Below, one piece after another: positions 35,843 to 62,386 of a stretch of 64,000 nt of DNA. The translations under genes were made by a program, and so were the position numbers. The first letter of the stretch is position 1. Each line of letters opens with the position of its first letter. The stretch is from Candidatus Edwardsbacteria bacterium RifOxyA12_full_54_48 (GTDB lineage Bacteria > Edwardsbacteria > AC1 > EtOH8), in assembly GCA_001777915.1 (NCBI GenBank), contig MFFN01000009.1:1-64000 (forward strand). The letters are read 5' to 3'. Below the pieces are notes generated by a model. It ran no database searches. It saw only the letters and a list, made by a program, of their open reading frames with translations, and was not told where the DNA came from.

Positions 35843-35871
35843 AAATTTTGACAGTTGATAAGGGATCTTGT

Positions 35872-37959
35872 ATGAAAGAAATTTCCATCCTGCAGAAACA
35901 CCGGTCCAACTACCAGCCCAAACTGCCTCCGGTTTTCATCCAAAAAGAAACATCGGTCGAAGTCCGGGAGGGGGAGCAAGCGGAGCCGCAGTCCGACCAG
36001 AAAGCCGTCAACGAAAGATTTCCCAGGACCTACGGGCTTCCATTACTGACCTTTGAGACCACCGAGAAGGCCGAACTTCCGGCCATCAATGTGGGGGTGG
36101 TGCTTTCCGGGGGGCAGTCTCCCGGCGGGCATAATGTCATCGCCGGGCTGTTCGACGCTATAAAGCAATTCAACCATAAGAGCCAGCTCTACGGCTTTCT
36201 GGAGGGTCCCAGCGGGCTGATAGATAATAAGCAGCTGCTGCTGACCGAAGAGATCGTAGACCAGTACCGCAATACCGGGGGTTTCGACATCATCGGCTCG
36301 GGACGTACCAAACTGGAGAAGGAGGCGCAATTCGACCAGGCGGCCGCCACCTGCCGTTCGGCCGGGATCGGAGCCATAGTGATCATCGGCGGCGACGACT
36401 CCAACACCAACGCCGCCATGCTGGCGGAGTATTTTCTGCAGAAGGACATCGATATAAAGGTGATCGGCTGCCCCAAGACCATCGACGGCGACCTGAAGAA
36501 TAAGCAGGTCGAGATCTCCTTCGGATTCGACACCGCCACCAAGGTCTACTGCGAACTGCTGGGCAACATCCAGCGGGACGATCAGTCGGCCAAGAAATAC
36601 TGGCACTTTATCCGGGTGATGGGCCGGGCGGCCTCGCATATCGCCCTGGAATGCGCCCTGCAGTGCCATCCCAACATCACCATCATCTCCGAGGAGGTGG
36701 CCGACCAGGGTCGGCGGCTTAAGGAGATCGTGGAATACATCGCCGGGGTGGTCCGGGACCGCTCCCTGAACGGCATGGATTACGGGGTGGTGGTCATCCC
36801 CGAGGGGCTGATAGAGTTCATCCCGGAGATCAAAAAGCTGATAGCCGAGCTCAACGACCTGATGGCCGAGCACAAGGACTATTTCAACGGCCTGACCACC
36901 CCGGAGGACAAGCACCAGTTCATCAACAAGAACCTGACCGCCCAGTCGGCCCAGGCTTTCGCTTCGATCCCCCAGGAGATCCAGTGGCAATTATTGGAGG
37001 ATCGCGACCCCCACGGCAACGTCCAGGTGTCCCGGATCGAGACCGAAAAACTGCTGATCGACATGGTGGGAGACCTGCTGAGGGAATGGAGGGCCGAGGG
37101 AAAATTCTCCGGCAAGTTCAGCCCCCAGAACCATTTCTTCGGCTACGAGGGGCGGTGCTCCGCGCCCTCCAATTTCGACGCCGACTACAGCTACAGTCTG
37201 GGCTATGCCGCGGCGGCCCTGGTGGCCTGCGGCAAGACCGGCTATATGGCTCAGATCGCCAATCTGGCCGAGCCTCCGGGCAACTGGGTGGCGGGCGGCA
37301 TTCCCCTGACCATGATAATGAATCTGGAGCGGCGGCAGGGCAGGGATGTTCCGGTGATCAGGAAGGCCCTGGTGAACCTGAACGGCGGACCGTTCAAGGA
37401 ATTCGCCCGGCAGCGGGATGGCTGGGCCAAGGGCAACGACTACATCTATCCCGGGCCGATCCAGTATTTCGGGCCGGCCGAGGTCTGCGACCGCAGTACC
37501 ATGACCCTGGCGCTGGAGCAGGGCGAGGACATTCTGAATATTCTGCAGGGCCTGGATGTCCTGCGGGACTCAGATGTCTTTTCCGAGCTGGGGCCGGAGG
37601 CCATCATCCGTCTGTTAAGCCTGGTGCAAAGGCTGTACATCAAACCCGGACAGATGGTCATCCGCCGGGGCGAGCTGGGGCAGTGCTTCTACATCGTGAT
37701 GGATGGCGAGCTGGAGGTGATGGGCAAGGACGACAAGACCCCGGTGGCCACCCTCAAGAAGGGCGACCCCTTCGGGGAGATCGCCCTGCTGACCGACGTG
37801 CCCCGGACCGCCAACGTGGTGGCCAGGACCGACGGCAGCGTGCTGTTTTTGGATTCCTACAGTTTCAAGGATTTTCTGGCCGAGTTCGGCAATCTGGGAG
37901 ACAGACTGGAGAAGCTGGGTGCGGAGAGGCTGAAGGAGCTGGAGGGGAAGGGGAACTGA
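35872..37959 (+). CDS. Diphosphate-dependent phosphofructokinase fused to a cyclic-nucleotide-binding domain
   Basis: It should phosphorylate fructose 6-phosphate with PPi, reversibly. ATG 35872 (AAGGGA upstream) gives 695 residues. Residues ~70-560 are the long PFP type: LSGGQSPGGHN (79-89), GGDDSNTNA (173-181) where Asp176 replaces the Gly of ATP enzymes, PKTIDGDLKN (201-210) with the PPi-specifying Lys, and MGRAASHIALE (250-260). Residues ~578-675 form a cNMP-binding domain: RLYIKPGQMVIRRGELG, then the phosphate-binding cassette FGEIALLTDVPRTANV (634-649) with the conserved Glu and Arg. The junction is seamless with no stop or frameshift. Allosteric control by cAMP or cGMP is an inference. 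FBP aldolase follows directly. Confidence 0.9.
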   Translation: MKEISILQKHRSNYQPKLPPVFIQKETSVEVREGEQAEPQSDQKAVNERFPRTYGLPLLTFETTEKAELPAINVGVVLSGGQSPGGHNVIAGLFDAIKQFNHKSQLYGFLEGPSGLIDNKQLLLTEEIVDQYRNTGGFDIIGSGRTKLEKEAQFDQAAATCRSAGIGAIVIIGGDDSNTNAAMLAEYFLQKDIDIKVIGCPKTIDGDLKNKQVEISFGFDTATKVYCELLGNIQRDDQSAKKYWHFIRVMGRAASHIALECALQCHPNITIISEEVADQGRRLKEIVEYIAGVVRDRSLNGMDYGVVVIPEGLIEFIPEIKKLIAELNDLMAEHKDYFNGLTTPEDKHQFINKNLTAQSAQAFASIPQEIQWQLLEDRDPHGNVQVSRIETEKLLIDMVGDLLREWRAEGKFSGKFSPQNHFFGYEGRCSAPSNFDADYSYSLGYAAAALVACGKTGYMAQIANLAEPPGNWVAGGIPLTMIMNLERRQGRDVPVIRKALVNLNGGPFKEFARQRDGWAKGNDYIYPGPIQYFGPAEVCDRSTMTLALEQGEDILNILQGLDVLRDSDVFSELGPEAIIRLLSLVQRLYIKPGQMVIRRGELGQCFYIVMDGELEVMGKDDKTPVATLKKGDPFGEIALLTDVPRTANVVARTDGSVLFLDSYSFKDFLAEFGNLGDRLEKLGAERLKELEGKGN

Positions 37960-38071: not shown

Positions 38072-38992
38072 ATGCCACTAGTCGGAACCCGCGAGATGTT
38101 CAAAAAGGCCTATGACGGCGGCTACGCCATCGGGGCCTTCAACGTCAACAACATGGAATTATTGCAGGCCATCGTCGATGCCGGCACCGAGGAGCGGGCA
38201 CCCCTGATCCTGCAGGTGTCGGCCGGGGCCCGCAAATACGCCCGGCAGGAATACCTGATCCACCTGGTACAGGCGGCCATGGAGACCACCGACATTCCGG
38301 TGGCCCTGCACCTGGACCACGGCGACAGCTTCGAGCTGTGCCAGGCCTGCGTGGACGGGGGATTCTCCTCAGTGATGATCGACGCCTCGCATTTCCCCTT
38401 CGAGGAAAACGTGGCCCTCACCAAAAAAGTGGTGGACTATGCCCACGCCAAGGGGGTGCCGGTGGAGGCCGAGCTGGGCAAGCTGACCTCCACCTCCGAC
38501 GAGCCGGGGGCCCGGGAGGCGGTGTACACCGACCCGGACGAGGTGGTCGAATTTGTCAAACAGACCGGATGCGATTCGCTGGCCATATCCATCGGGACCT
38601 CCCACGGGGCCTACAAATTCAAGGGCGAGGCCACCCTGGACTTCCCGCGCTTAGAAAAGATCCAAAACCTGCTGCCGGGATATCCCATCGTGCTGCACGG
38701 GGCCTCTTCGGTTCCGGCCGAGCTGGTGGATATCTGCAACAAATACGGCGGCAAACTGCCGGGCACCCGCGGGGTGCCGGAAGAATTCCTGGCCCGGGCC
38801 GCCAAGATGGCGGTCTGCAAGATCAATGTGGACACCGACCTGCGGATCGCCATGACCGGTGCCATCCGCCAGGTCTTTGCCGAGAGCCCTTCGGAGTTCG
38901 ATCCCCGCAAATACCTGGGCCCGGCCCGGGAGGCGGTCAAGCAGGTGGTCAAGGGCAAGGTCAAGCTGTTCGGCTGTGCCGGGAAGGCATAA
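38072..38992 (+). CDS. fba: Class II fructose-bisphosphate aldolase
   Basis: It cleaves fructose 1,6-bisphosphate to the two triose phosphates with a zinc ion. The 306-residue product has the motif ALHLDHGDSFELC (78-90) with His83 as zinc ligand and Asp82 catalytic, and later IVLHGASSVPAELV and CKINVDTDLRIAMTGAIR segments for metal and phosphate binding. GGGAGGA lies at 38060-38066. Grouping with PPi-PFK upstream and GAPDH downstream marks a glycolytic/gluconeogenic cluster. Confidence 0.95.
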   Translation: MPLVGTREMFKKAYDGGYAIGAFNVNNMELLQAIVDAGTEERAPLILQVSAGARKYARQEYLIHLVQAAMETTDIPVALHLDHGDSFELCQACVDGGFSSVMIDASHFPFEENVALTKKVVDYAHAKGVPVEAELGKLTSTSDEPGAREAVYTDPDEVVEFVKQTGCDSLAISIGTSHGAYKFKGEATLDFPRLEKIQNLLPGYPIVLHGASSVPAELVDICNKYGGKLPGTRGVPEEFLARAAKMAVCKINVDTDLRIAMTGAIRQVFAESPSEFDPRKYLGPAREAVKQVVKGKVKLFGCAGKA

Positions 38993-39085: not shown

Positions 39086-39216
39086 GATTAAAGCATTGGT
39101 TGTCTGAAAATGCAAAAATCATAATAATCATGTAAGGAGGAATGATATTGGGCGACAATTAACGTCCTTTTAGACTATCTGAATCAACCAGTAAACTAAA
39201 AAGGAGCGTGAACATC

Positions 39217-40371
39217 ATGAGCACCGATATCAAAAAATCCCTTCGCGAGCTGACCAAAATGCAGCCCGGCGAGGGCTACGTGCTGAGCGTCTACGTCAAC
39301 GCCGCCCCGGACGGCAAGGGGCGCAGGAGTTACAACGTTTTTCTCAAGAAGAAATTCAATGAGATCGAGAAGAGCTTAAACCCGCACAGCCCCGAAGCGG
39401 AAAGTTTTCCCAAGGACGTCAAGGAGATAAACCGCTACCTGGAGGAGGACCTGAAGCCGGAGAGCAAGGGGGCCGCCCTATTCATTTCCCAGAGCAAGAA
39501 AATATTCAAGAGCTTCCAGACGGTGCTGCCGCTGGCCAACCGGGTGATAGTGTCCCGGGTTCCGTTCATCTACCCCCTGGCCAGGATGTCCGACAATTAT
39601 TACCCTTACGGCGTGATCATCAGCGACGAGAAGCAGGCCAGAATGCTGAAGATATACCTGGGCAACCTGGAGGAGGAGGCCGACATAGTCACCGCCGCCG
39701 ACGACATCTCGGCCAAGGGCTACGAGACCAGGAAGGGCCGGCTGGGCCTGTCCGACGAGAAACACCAGCGGCACCTTAAGGATCTCCGGGCCAAACACGT
39801 AAAAAGCGTCATCCGGGAGGCCCAGAGATTCTTCCAGGGCGATACCGCCCATCTGCTGGTGGCGGCGGAGAACGGGACTTTGGCCGAGATCAACCGGCAG
39901 CTGCCGGCCGCCCTCAAGGACAAGGTGATCACCACCGCCAAATTCGACATCAAATCCCCCAACAAAAAGGTGCTGGATGAATCGCTGAAGCTGTTCCATG
40001 ACCTGGAGAACCAGGAGTCCCAGAGGATAGCCCGGGAGGCCGTGGTGCTGGCTAAAAGCAAGGGGGGCCGGGCCATGCTGGGCACCAAGGCCATCCTGGC
40101 GGCCCTGCAGGACGGCCGGGCCGAGACCCTGGTGATCTCGGAAAAATACTCCGGGCAGGGCTGGCAGTGCGCCGACTGCCTGATGCTGGGAGCCCTGGGC
40201 AAACCCAAGGTATGCGTTTATTGCGGCGGCAAGGCCATCGACAAAGATCCGGATATGAAGGAGGAGATGGTGGGCCTGGCCCTGAGGCACGGGGTCAAGG
40301 TGGAATTCGTGGAGGGATCGGCCGAACTGGACCAGAACGGCGGGATCGGGGTCCTGATGAAGAACAGATGA
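39217..40371 (+). CDS. eRF1-like protein, bacterial archaeo-eukaryotic release factor family (baeRF10-like)
   Basis: ATG 39217, ten bases after AAGGAG, gives 384 residues. The C-terminal third has the eRF1/L7Ae-type pattern: LVISEKYSGQGWQC, a CxxC...CxxC zinc knuckle (CADC, CVYC) and the end VEFVEGSAELDQNGGIGVLM. The middle domain has RKGRLGLSDEKHQRHLKDL, where related proteins carry a catalytic Gln loop; no GGQ is present. baeRF proteins are thought to act on stalled ribosomes or peptidyl-tRNA, by similarity with Vms1. The family number is a judgement from memory of the pattern. Confidence 0.75.
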   Translation: MSTDIKKSLRELTKMQPGEGYVLSVYVNAAPDGKGRRSYNVFLKKKFNEIEKSLNPHSPEAESFPKDVKEINRYLEEDLKPESKGAALFISQSKKIFKSFQTVLPLANRVIVSRVPFIYPLARMSDNYYPYGVIISDEKQARMLKIYLGNLEEEADIVTAADDISAKGYETRKGRLGLSDEKHQRHLKDLRAKHVKSVIREAQRFFQGDTAHLLVAAENGTLAEINRQLPAALKDKVITTAKFDIKSPNKKVLDESLKLFHDLENQESQRIAREAVVLAKSKGGRAMLGTKAILAALQDGRAETLVISEKYSGQGWQCADCLMLGALGKPKVCVYCGGKAIDKDPDMKEEMVGLALRHGVKVEFVEGSAELDQNGGIGVLMKNR

Positions 40372-40426: not shown

Positions 40427-42170
<1,744 letters not shown>

Positions 42171-57059: not shown

Positions 57060-58028
57060 ATGAAAGCGGTATTGGTAAAGGAGCTGCTGGCCGACCGCCA
57101 GGAGGCCCTGCATTTGGAGGTCCTGACCGGGGATAGCGGCCTGGACCGGAAGATAATCATCGCCGACACCAACCGGCCCGGCCTGGCCTTTACCGGCTAT
57201 ATGGGCTATTTCCTGTGGGAGAGGGTGCAGATAATCGGCATCACCGAGACCGGCTACCTGGAGACCCTGCCGTCGGATAAACGGATCGAGGCCATCAAGC
57301 GGGTCACCTCTTTCGAGCTGCCCTGCATCGTGGTCACCAAGAAGCTGGGGGTGCACCCCGAGCTGCTGTCCGAGGCCAAGGCCAGGAATATTCCGGTGTT
57401 GAGGACCGATATCGACACCACCGAGTTCATTCACCGGCTGTCGTCCTACATCGACAACATGCTGGCGCCCACCACCACCATGCACGGCACCCTGGTGGAT
57501 GTCTACGGGGTGGGCCTTTTGTACACCGGCGACTCCGGCATCGGCAAGAGCGAATGCGCCCTGGACCTGATCGAGCGGGGACACCGGCTGGTGGCCGACG
57601 ATGTGGTCACCATCAAGAAGCGGGGGGAGAGGGTGCTGATGGGCTACGGCAACCAGATGCTGCAGCATCATATGGAGATCCGGGGGATCGGGATAGTGGA
57701 CCTGACCACCCTGTTCGGCATCCGTTCGGTGCGGATGCGCAAAAGGATAGAGGTGGAGGTCCGGCTCAAGCGCTGGTCGGACGACGAGGATTACGAAAGG
57801 CTGGGGCTGGAGGAGAAGCCCACCACCATCCTGGGGGTGGAGATCCCCTTGATCACCGTTCCGGTGGTGTCGGGCAAGAACATCAGCGTGATCTCCGAAG
57901 TGCTGGCCATGAACCATCTGCTGAAACTGTGCGGATACAGCAGCGCCGAGGAGTTCAACAACCGGCTGCTGGATTCCATGCAAAAGAAGTTCGAGTCGGC
58001 CCGGTTCGTGGAGGACGATCTGGAGTGA
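57060..58028 (+). CDS. hprK: HPr kinase/phosphorylase
   Basis: It phosphorylates and dephosphorylates Ser46 of HPr. The 322-residue product has the Walker A motif GDSGIGKS (157-164), the signature MEIRGIGIVDLTTLFGI and the C-terminal PVVSGKNISVISEVLAMN region. The matching HPr with Ser46 and Enzyme I are 2.3 kb downstream, so a Ser/His-regulated relay is complete here. CGGAGG precedes the start. Confidence 0.95.
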   Translation: MKAVLVKELLADRQEALHLEVLTGDSGLDRKIIIADTNRPGLAFTGYMGYFLWERVQIIGITETGYLETLPSDKRIEAIKRVTSFELPCIVVTKKLGVHPELLSEAKARNIPVLRTDIDTTEFIHRLSSYIDNMLAPTTTMHGTLVDVYGVGLLYTGDSGIGKSECALDLIERGHRLVADDVVTIKKRGERVLMGYGNQMLQHHMEIRGIGIVDLTTLFGIRSVRMRKRIEVEVRLKRWSDDEDYERLGLEEKPTTILGVEIPLITVPVVSGKNISVISEVLAMNHLLKLCGYSSAEEFNNRLLDSMQKKFESARFVEDDLE

Positions 58029-60354: not shown

Positions 60355-60620
60355 TGCAGGAGATAAAAGCGCTCATCGTCAACCGCCTGGGCATGCATGC
60401 CAGGCCGGCCGCCCTGTTCGTCAAGACATCCAGTAAGTTCCAGTCCAAGATCTGGGTCCGCAAGGATGATCTGGAGGTCAACGGAAAGAGCATCATGGGG
60501 GTGATGATGCTGGCCGCCGAACCCGGCAGCAGCCTGATCATCAAAGCCGACGGTCCGGACGAGCAGGAAGCCCTGGAGGCCCTGGCCAAGCTGGTAGCTG
60601 ATAAATTCTATGAGGATTGA
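60354..60620 (+). CDS. ptsH: Phosphocarrier protein HPr
   Basis: The 88-residue product has the active-site motif GMHARPAAL with His15, and Ser46 in GKSIMGVMML, the site modified by HPr kinase. ATG 60354 shares its first base with the GH57 stop (TGATG). With HprK present, P-Ser-HPr could act in carbon control as in Firmicutes and some diderms. Confidence 0.95.
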   Translation: MQEIKALIVNRLGMHARPAALFVKTSSKFQSKIWVRKDDLEVNGKSIMGVMMLAAEPGSSLIIKADGPDEQEALEALAKLVADKFYED

Positions 60621-60622
60621 TC

Positions 60623-62386
60623 ATGGCCAATGAGACCAGATTATACGGGATCCCCGTCTCCCCGGGTTTCGGCATCGGCCAGGCTTTCATCTATCGCAAA
60701 AACCTGCCGGTGCTCAAGCGGCGGATGGTGGATAATGCCAACAAGGAGATCGCCAGATTTCACAACGCCCTTAGCAACGCCCGGCTGGAGATCGCCGAGC
60801 TTCGGGATATGATCGCCGGCCGGCTGGGGAGGGATGAGGCCGAGCTGTGGACCGCCCAGCTGATGATGCTGGAGGACGTGACGGTGATCCAAGCCACCGC
60901 CGACAGGATCAGGGAAAAGAAACAGGATGCCGCCTCGGCCTTCCAGGAGACGATCAGCCAGGTGGCCGAGACCATCGAGTCGTCCTCCAATCAGTATCTC
61001 AAAGAGCGGGTGGCCGATATCCGGGATATCTCCTGGCGGGTGATAAAACACATCCAATCCGGGAATCCATCGGTTCTGCATAAGCTTTCCCGGAATTCGG
61101 TGGTGGTGTCCCACGACCTGTCGGCGGCCGATACTGCTTTGATGTCGGCCCGGAATATAGCCGGCTTCATCACCGAGGTGGGAGGCAAGACATCGCATAC
61201 CGCCATTGTGGCCCGCTCCCTGGAGATCCCGGCGGTGGTGGGCATCAAGGACGCTCTGCAGCAGCCCCTGCCCGGCGCCATGGTCATCGTGGACGGCACC
61301 AGGGGGGTGGTCATACTGGACCCGCTGCCCCAGACCCTGGAATCTTACCAACAGGAGCAGAAGGAATACCAGAAGCATATCTCCGACCTGAAGAGGCTGC
61401 GGAAAAGCAAGCCGGTGACCCTGGACGGGCGCCGGATAGAATTGTCTGCCAATATAGAATTGCCGGAAGAGATCCCCTCGGTAAAATCACACGGGGCCAA
61501 GGGCATCGGGCTTTTCAGGACGGAATACCTTTTCCTGACATCCTCCCAGCTGCCCGATGAGGAGCAGCAGTTCGCTATCTACAAACAGGTAGCCGAGAAA
61601 ATCGCCCCGGATCCGGTGATAATCCGCACTTTTGATCTGGGCGGGGACAAGATCAACGGCCACGGCTTCTCGCCCGAGGCCAATCCCTTCCTGGGGTGGC
61701 GGGCCATCAGGTTCTGCCTGGACCGTCCGGAGATCTTCCGGGCCCAGCTCAGGGCCATCCTGAGGGCCTCGGCCTTCGGCTCGGTCAGGATCATGCTCCC
61801 CATGATCTGCTGCCTGGAGGAGGTAACCCAGACCAAGGTCATTCTGGATTCCATCCGACTGGAGCTGGACGAAAAGAAGATCGCCTATGACCGCAACTGC
61901 CAGCTGGGAGTGATGATAGAGACCCCGGCAGCAGCCCTGACCAGCGACATCCTGGCCCCAGAGGTGGATTTCTTCAGCATCGGCTCCAACGATCTTACCC
62001 AATACACCCTGGCGGTGGACCGGGTCAACGAGAAGGTGGCTAAATTGTACGATCCCTTCAATCCGGCGGTGCTTAAACTGATCAAGCAGGTGATAGAATC
62101 CGGGCACCGCTCAGGCATCTGGGTGGGCCTGTGCGGGGAGATGTGCGCCGATCCCCTGGCGGTGCCGCTGTTATTGGGATTGGGTCTGGATGAGTTCAGC
62201 ATGAACGCGGTCTCGGTCCCCGAGGTCAAACGGATGATCCTCAAACTCAGGTTGGAGGATTGCCAAAAGGTGGCCGGGAGGGCCATGGAAGCAAAAAGCG
62301 CGTTGCAGGCCAGGACCGTACTTTCGGAGTTTGTACTGAACATCTTTCCGGACCTGGCCCTGAGCTGTGCCCTGGAAAGATCATGA
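60623..62386 (+). CDS. ptsI: PTS Enzyme I (PEP-protein phosphotransferase)
   Basis: It takes phosphate from PEP and passes it to HPr. ATG 60623 with GAGGA six bases upstream gives 587 residues. Phosphohistidine motif GGKTSHTAIVARS has His192; PEP-binding motifs FFSIGSNDLTQYTLAVDR and VGLCGEMCADP are complete. No sugar-specific EII is in the window, so the relay may be regulatory. Confidence 0.95.
   Translation: MANETRLYGIPVSPGFGIGQAFIYRKNLPVLKRRMVDNANKEIARFHNALSNARLEIAELRDMIAGRLGRDEAELWTAQLMMLEDVTVIQATADRIREKKQDAASAFQETISQVAETIESSSNQYLKERVADIRDISWRVIKHIQSGNPSVLHKLSRNSVVVSHDLSAADTALMSARNIAGFITEVGGKTSHTAIVARSLEIPAVVGIKDALQQPLPGAMVIVDGTRGVVILDPLPQTLESYQQEQKEYQKHISDLKRLRKSKPVTLDGRRIELSANIELPEEIPSVKSHGAKGIGLFRTEYLFLTSSQLPDEEQQFAIYKQVAEKIAPDPVIIRTFDLGGDKINGHGFSPEANPFLGWRAIRFCLDRPEIFRAQLRAILRASAFGSVRIMLPMICCLEEVTQTKVILDSIRLELDEKKIAYDRNCQLGVMIETPAAALTSDILAPEVDFFSIGSNDLTQYTLAVDRVNEKVAKLYDPFNPAVLKLIKQVIESGHRSGIWVGLCGEMCADPLAVPLLLGLGLDEFSMNAVSVPEVKRMILKLRLEDCQKVAGRAMEAKSALQARTVLSEFVLNIFPDLALSCALERS

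Follow-up and report, generated by a model that had tools for sequence, protein, structure and literature searches.

Bacterial cAMP is mostly known to act via transcription factors, and to our knowledge there are few cases in which it acts directly on a metabolic enzyme. We regard the mycobacterial acetyltransferase Pat (MSMEG_5458, Rv0998; structure 4avc) as the nearest enzyme precedent for the protein described here, since both combine an enzyme of metabolic control with a fused cyclic-nucleotide-binding domain (CNBD). MsPat and MtPat are allosterically activated by cAMP, whereby autoinhibition is relieved (PMC8556138). In Pat, however, the CNBD is N-terminal, and the enzyme is a GNAT acetyltransferase that acts on other proteins and is not glycolytic. 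The CNBDs of SthK, the HCN channel, PKA and PKG have the same fold and cassette, but what they govern is an ion pore or a protein kinase. In 2014, Pfam held no fusion of a CNBD with a glycolytic enzyme except a degenerate PGK-like protein (PMC4106842). This protein, Trypanosoma PGKL (PGK, CNBD and HTH), joins a glycolytic-enzyme domain to a CNBD, but is eukaryotic, flagellar and predicted to be catalytically dead, and its cNMP contacts are missing (PMC4106842). A further central carbon enzyme with a C-terminal CNBD, G6PDH-CNBD (UniProt Q0F2T2), belongs to the pentose phosphate pathway and is represented by one bacterial sequence, mentioned without characterisation (PMC4106842). With respect to PPi-dependent phosphofructokinases (PPi-PFK, PFP), all characterised bacterial members are non-allosteric according to a 2025 review (PMC12203962), and the Borrelia burgdorferi enzyme (1kzh/2f48) terminates at residue 555 without a CNBD. 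A literature search found no paper describing a PFK-CNBD fusion.

Such a fusion is encoded in the window, i.e. the whole 64,000-nucleotide stretch analysed here, taken from the start of contig 9; the genome measures 2.74 Mb in 9 contigs (completeness reported as 100%). A single uninterrupted ORF runs on the plus strand from the ATG at 35872 to a stop codon ending at 37959; it encodes 695 aa and has no internal stops. The original prediction had placed a PPi-PFK with a C-terminal CNBD in one frame at exactly these coordinates, and this was confirmed by matches to TIGR02477 and PF00027. As the PFK/PFKA_PPi and the cNMP_binding matches both lie far over their cut-offs, chance is excluded, and the fusion of a PPi-PFK with a CNBD is real in sequence. 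Both domains are of known families; judged by these matches, what is new is their combination in one protein. In contrast to PGKL, this protein keeps both the catalytic and the cNMP-contacting residues. The features of the locus are as follows.

35872..37959 (+): PFP-CNBD fusion, 695 aa plus stop (ORF; present in nine of ten genomes of the phylum)
36082..37521 (+): PFP catalytic region, aa 71-550 (TIGR02477, PF00365, model vs 1kzh_A)
36388..36411 (+): GGDDSNTN, aa 173-180, with D176 and N180, predicted PPi-specificity residues (alignment; PMC12203962)
36472..36492 (+): PKTIDGD, aa 201-207, with K202 and the catalytic Asp motif (alignment; PMC12203962)
37012..37014 (+): codon of H381 (alignment with the Borrelia enzyme; invariant among homologues)
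37522..37626 (+): linker and helices, aa 551-585, from the enzyme to the CNBD beta-barrel (model; identity comparison)
37627..37896 (+): CNBD beta-barrel and first C-helix, aa 586-675 (PF00027; CNBD-only model; fold matches)
37768..37821 (+): phosphate-binding cassette, aa 633-650, with E636 and R645 (unchanged in nine fused proteins)
38072..38992 (+): class II fructose-bisphosphate aldolase, next gene downstream and next enzyme of the pathway (TIGR01859, 376 bits)
41058..42170 (+): GAPDH, same cluster (TIGR01534, 440 bits)

An alternative start, TTG at 35848 in the same frame, is less likely: the ATG is preceded by a Shine-Dalgarno-like AAGGGA, and PFP-CNBD homologues within the genus begin with MKEIS or MNEIS, which supports the ATG at 35872.

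The enzyme part matched the NCBIfam equivalog TIGR02477 (PPi-phosphofructokinase) at aa 7-550 with 790 bits (cut-off 587.95; profile positions 1-539 of 539) and NF005482 (family TIGR02477/PRK07085) with 801 bits (cut-off 446). Pfam PF00365 was matched as well, and the N-terminal extension (aa 1-70) likewise belongs to the PFP family. Similarity to the Borrelia PPi-PFK extends over aa 5-549 (651 bits; 51% identity over 544 residues). A full-length AlphaFold2 model superposed on 1kzh_A with a Z of 43.0 and an rmsd of 2.3 over 544 aligned residues. The specificity residues of the Borrelia enzyme are Asp177 in GGDD, Asn181, Lys203 in PKTIDxD and His384, the last of which blocks the ATP ribose (PMC12203962). 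All four are present here as D176, N180, K202 and H381, and none of them varies among 25 aligned proteins, fused and unfused. The PPi-type residues of the original prediction, GGDD (aa 173-176) and PKTIDGD (aa 201-207), are thus present, within a full specificity set. The Lys by itself is not diagnostic of PPi use (PMC12203962); the Asp and the bulky Asn can be regarded as the stronger signs. By profile and residue matches, the enzyme part is a full-length long-type PPi-PFK and a predicted PPi user.

The C-terminal part matched PF00027 (Pfam cNMP_binding) at aa 589-671 with 71.5 bits against a gathering score of 27.5, covering positions 3-88 of 89. The predicted cassette FGEIALLTDVPRTANV was found at aa 634-649. 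Within it, we take E636 to be the ribose contact and R645 the contact to the cyclic phosphate, in line with the residue roles in CNBDs. When the CNBD was modelled alone with its relatives, the mean pLDDT was 91.7. This CNBD-only model (VIA-align) superposed on HCN2 with cAMP (1q5o, Z 20.6), SthK with cAMP (4d7t, Z 20.4), PKA RIalpha and the cAMP-regulated acetyltransferase Rv0998 (Z 18.6), with values of Z 18-21 for the channel and kinase CNBDs; Pat CNBD resemblance was also seen in sequence (NF058543, 47 bits). Profile, cassette and modelled fold all fit, indicating that the CNBD is complete, and it quite probably binds a cyclic mononucleotide. Including the leading helices it comprises about 140 residues (aa 553-693), so that the earlier size of ~118 residues was too small. 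The earlier description as CAP-like holds in a broad sense; the domain is closer to those of CNG channels, PKA and PKG (SthK, HCN2, PKA RIalpha, PKG). CAP/CRP transcription factors carry a C-terminal helix-turn-helix, whereas no such motif was detected by Pfam after the CNBD, where only a helix of ~20 residues is left.

Outside the phylum, domain and profile searches found a CNBD in none of the about 300 PFPs listed. The architecture, which had been called unusual, therefore appears to be rare and was seen in this phylum alone. Among the 80 top-ranking PFP loci from named genomes of other phyla, none had a CNBD nearby. No fusion was seen either among the PFPs listed from 105 genomes of the phylum to which a Fibrobacter genome belongs, from 127 sampled out of the 387 genomes in the phylum of a Lentisphaerae genome, from 13 genomes of another candidate phylum and from 18 further distant genomes. 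These sampled sets overlap and amount to roughly 300 distinct non-eukaryotic genes among the matches listed. In the compared phyla, PFP matches stop near aa 550. Because a divergent linker might conceal a CNBD, 32 further PFP regions (open frames over about 600 aa plus a few others) were searched with a CNBD profile. No match was obtained, and two fused controls scored ~186 bits; the additional length in these 32 frames lay nearly always upstream of the PFP start. The long C-terminal frame of one candidate PFP, in genome G598, turned out to be a GH4 glycosidase and not a CNBD. At this locus (L158, contig 134), where the contig starts, the PFP frame continues into the glycosidase, which may reflect an error in assembly or frame.

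Within the phylum, which is uncultured, the full-length fusion was present with identical junction in nine of ten genomes, representing three genera (63-95% identity). In the tenth genome, of a fourth genus and 89% complete, a PFP of this type was not matched. The enzyme parts of the nine proteins group as a single clade (SH-aLRT 100), as expected from one fusion event. Conservation of the cNMP-binding residues in homologues had been set beforehand as the test on which the original prediction should stand or fall; these residues are kept in all nine. The pattern KGDPFGEIALLxDVPRTAxV is invariant outside the x positions in every fused protein, and the cassette is identical even between genera that are only 63-66% identical overall. 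Estimates of dN/dS (Nei-Gojobori) were made within genus, dS between genera being too high for use, and gave 0.04-0.09 for the CNBD and 0.09-0.11 for the enzyme. By these estimates, purifying selection on the CNBD is as strong as on the enzyme within genus. A lone TAG in one homologue (L025) is its natural stop.

Putative components of cyclic nucleotide signalling are encoded elsewhere in the genome, in which 11 CNBDs and three class III cyclases were matched. Two of the cyclases (contig 4, near 488 kb and 926 kb) retain the two metal-binding Asp residues, a Lys and a Thr, and the catalytic Asn and Arg when compared with CyaB and CyaC. The Lys and Thr presumably go with ATP as substrate (adenine-specifying). 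The third match is without the catalytic Arg. A check of the genome for adenylate cyclases had been proposed with the original prediction, and these two class III enzymes with adenylate-type residues are plausible candidates. One of them has as neighbours two stand-alone CNBD proteins and a membrane protein of 1080 aa that carries two CNBDs. Since a cyclase stands beside three CNBD proteins, the lineage appears to use cAMP-type signalling broadly. This cluster (locus L124, 1575-4814, 5612-6555 and 6945-10751; contig 4 of the genome, G000, 920.6-929.8 kb) comprises the membrane protein, whose CNBDs are C-terminal and which has no other Pfam domains, the adenylate cyclase with AAA and TPR regions, and the two stand-alone CNBD proteins. 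The second CNBD of the 1080-aa protein is the nearest paralogue by identity (38%) of the CNBD fused to PFP. The probable ligand of the latter is cAMP.

The reading that we favour, with some confidence, is a reversible PFP with its activity set by cAMP via the fused CNBD. In this reading, the CNBD would have been gained once, C-terminally, by the ancestor from which the sampled lineage of the phylum descends. As in other long-type reversible PFPs, the reaction would be F6P + PPi <-> F1,6BP + Pi. cAMP from the class III adenylate cyclases would occupy the CNBD through E636 and R645, the C-helix would close on it, and the motion would reach the enzyme via the linker helices (aa 551-585), changing its activity or its oligomeric state. 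With respect to the sign we favour relief of an inhibitory contact, so that cAMP would activate, which is a guess. A second messenger would thereby set a near-equilibrium step in both directions. Precedents for such CNBD motion are PKA, CNG channels and mycobacterial Pat. The effector site that ATP-PFKs ordinarily have is disrupted in the Borrelia enzyme by its C-terminal extension (PMC12203962), and a domain appended there would be well placed to act. We hold it slightly more probable than its opposite that cNMP binding alters PFP activity. The weakest point of the mechanism is the linker, with helices at 552-566 and 575-582 in the full-length model. Its identity is 94-100% within genus and 37-49% across genera, so that no fixed transmission path is evident, and the C-tail is also weakly conserved across genera. 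Confidence in and near the CNBD is low in the full-length model because six of 25 alignment rows cover it, and the predicted domain arrangement thus gives no basis for inference.

Three other explanations have to be weighed against this reading. A merging of two genes by sequencing or assembly error, or a pseudogene, is ruled out by the identical junction in nine independent genomes on separate contigs; the purifying selection on both parts and the ORF without internal stop also speak against an artefact, to which we give practically no credence. It is quite improbable that the CNBD binds cGMP, or cUMP or cCMP, and places the enzyme under control of that messenger. This possibility is suggested by PRTA, where a Thr follows the phosphate-binding Arg as in PKG, by the best PDB sequence matches of the CNBD, which are apicomplexan cGMP-dependent kinases (PKG), and by the cUMP-bound CNBD 8jsk, which the CNBD-only model matched about equally (Z 19.0). 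However, other CNBDs of the genome also carry Thr or Ser after this Arg, as do cAMP-binding bacterial CNBDs, and the two well-conserved cyclases carry adenylate-type residues.

Alternatively, the CNBD might be passive, helping the protein to oligomerise, to stay stable or to be positioned close to other proteins, and no ligand would affect the enzyme. CNBD-like domains occur in some bacterial proteins that make no use of cNMP, and the weak conservation of linker and C-tail across genera would fit such a role, as would the fact that the characterised bacterial PFPs are all non-allosteric (PMC12203962). A purely structural role would not, however, predict that the cassette contacting the ligand varies less than any other part of the CNBD, nor that it is the same in all nine proteins. 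We consider a passive CNBD unlikely.

The reading as a cAMP-controlled reversible PFP can also be viewed in its metabolic setting. The gene order is comF, PFP-CNBD, class II FBP aldolase, a ribosome-hibernation-factor homologue, a cytidylate-kinase-like gene and GAPDH. The order of the GAPDH cluster is retained in three further genomes (G001, G002, G007); in other genera the aldolase lies near the fusion and much of the order is retained, with PFP and aldolase often separated by one or two inserted genes. The genome encodes a membrane pyrophosphatase, and no match to class I or class II FBPase was obtained in it. The clustering with FBP aldolase and GAPDH, together with the lack of FBPase I/II matches, is circumstantially in line with control of carbon flux. 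Given a reversible PFP and no FBPase I/II match, the enzyme may also serve gluconeogenesis. A second PFK (contig 8, 2759-3682; L012) of the mixed group TIGR02483 carries GGDG and PKTIDND, and is probably ATP-dependent on account of its GGDG. According to the review, it is undetermined whether any organism has a PPi-PFK as the main enzyme both ways (PMC12203962). The fusion suggests that a second messenger directly switches PFP, an enzyme type without such control in its studied bacterial members. That a cAMP-gated reversible PPi-PFK acts in this phylum as the principal valve between F6P and F1,6BP, whichever way the flux runs, appears doubtful to us, though possible. If it were so, this enzyme would be the first bacterial PPi-PFK with allosteric control, and a second messenger would directly switch the glycolysis/gluconeogenesis step. 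With PFP-CNBD in a genome that has putative adenylate cyclases, a membrane pyrophosphatase and no FBPase I/II match, the questions of allostery and of a two-way main enzyme become testable in one protein.

Several further genes were noted around the fusion. The ribosome-hibernation-factor homologue (39208-40371; baeRF family 10) matched NF052288 with 106 bits, below the cut-off of 480; it lies with the cytidylate-kinase-like gene (40427-41080) between aldolase and GAPDH in an order largely retained in the phylum. The inserts between PFP-CNBD and aldolase differ by genome (L116, L117, L119, L121) and, as identified by eye, include a secreted protein with a C-terminal sorting-like tail and a formylglycine-type SUMF-like protein. 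The same window also holds HPr kinase/phosphorylase and PTS enzyme I (57060-58028 and 60617-62386), near sigma-54 and a GH57 amylase, so that a regulatory PTS lies at a distance of about 20 kb from PFP-CNBD. In other bacteria, HPr kinase/phosphorylase is responsive to F1,6BP and able to make PPi, and a link to PFP is therefore conceivable.
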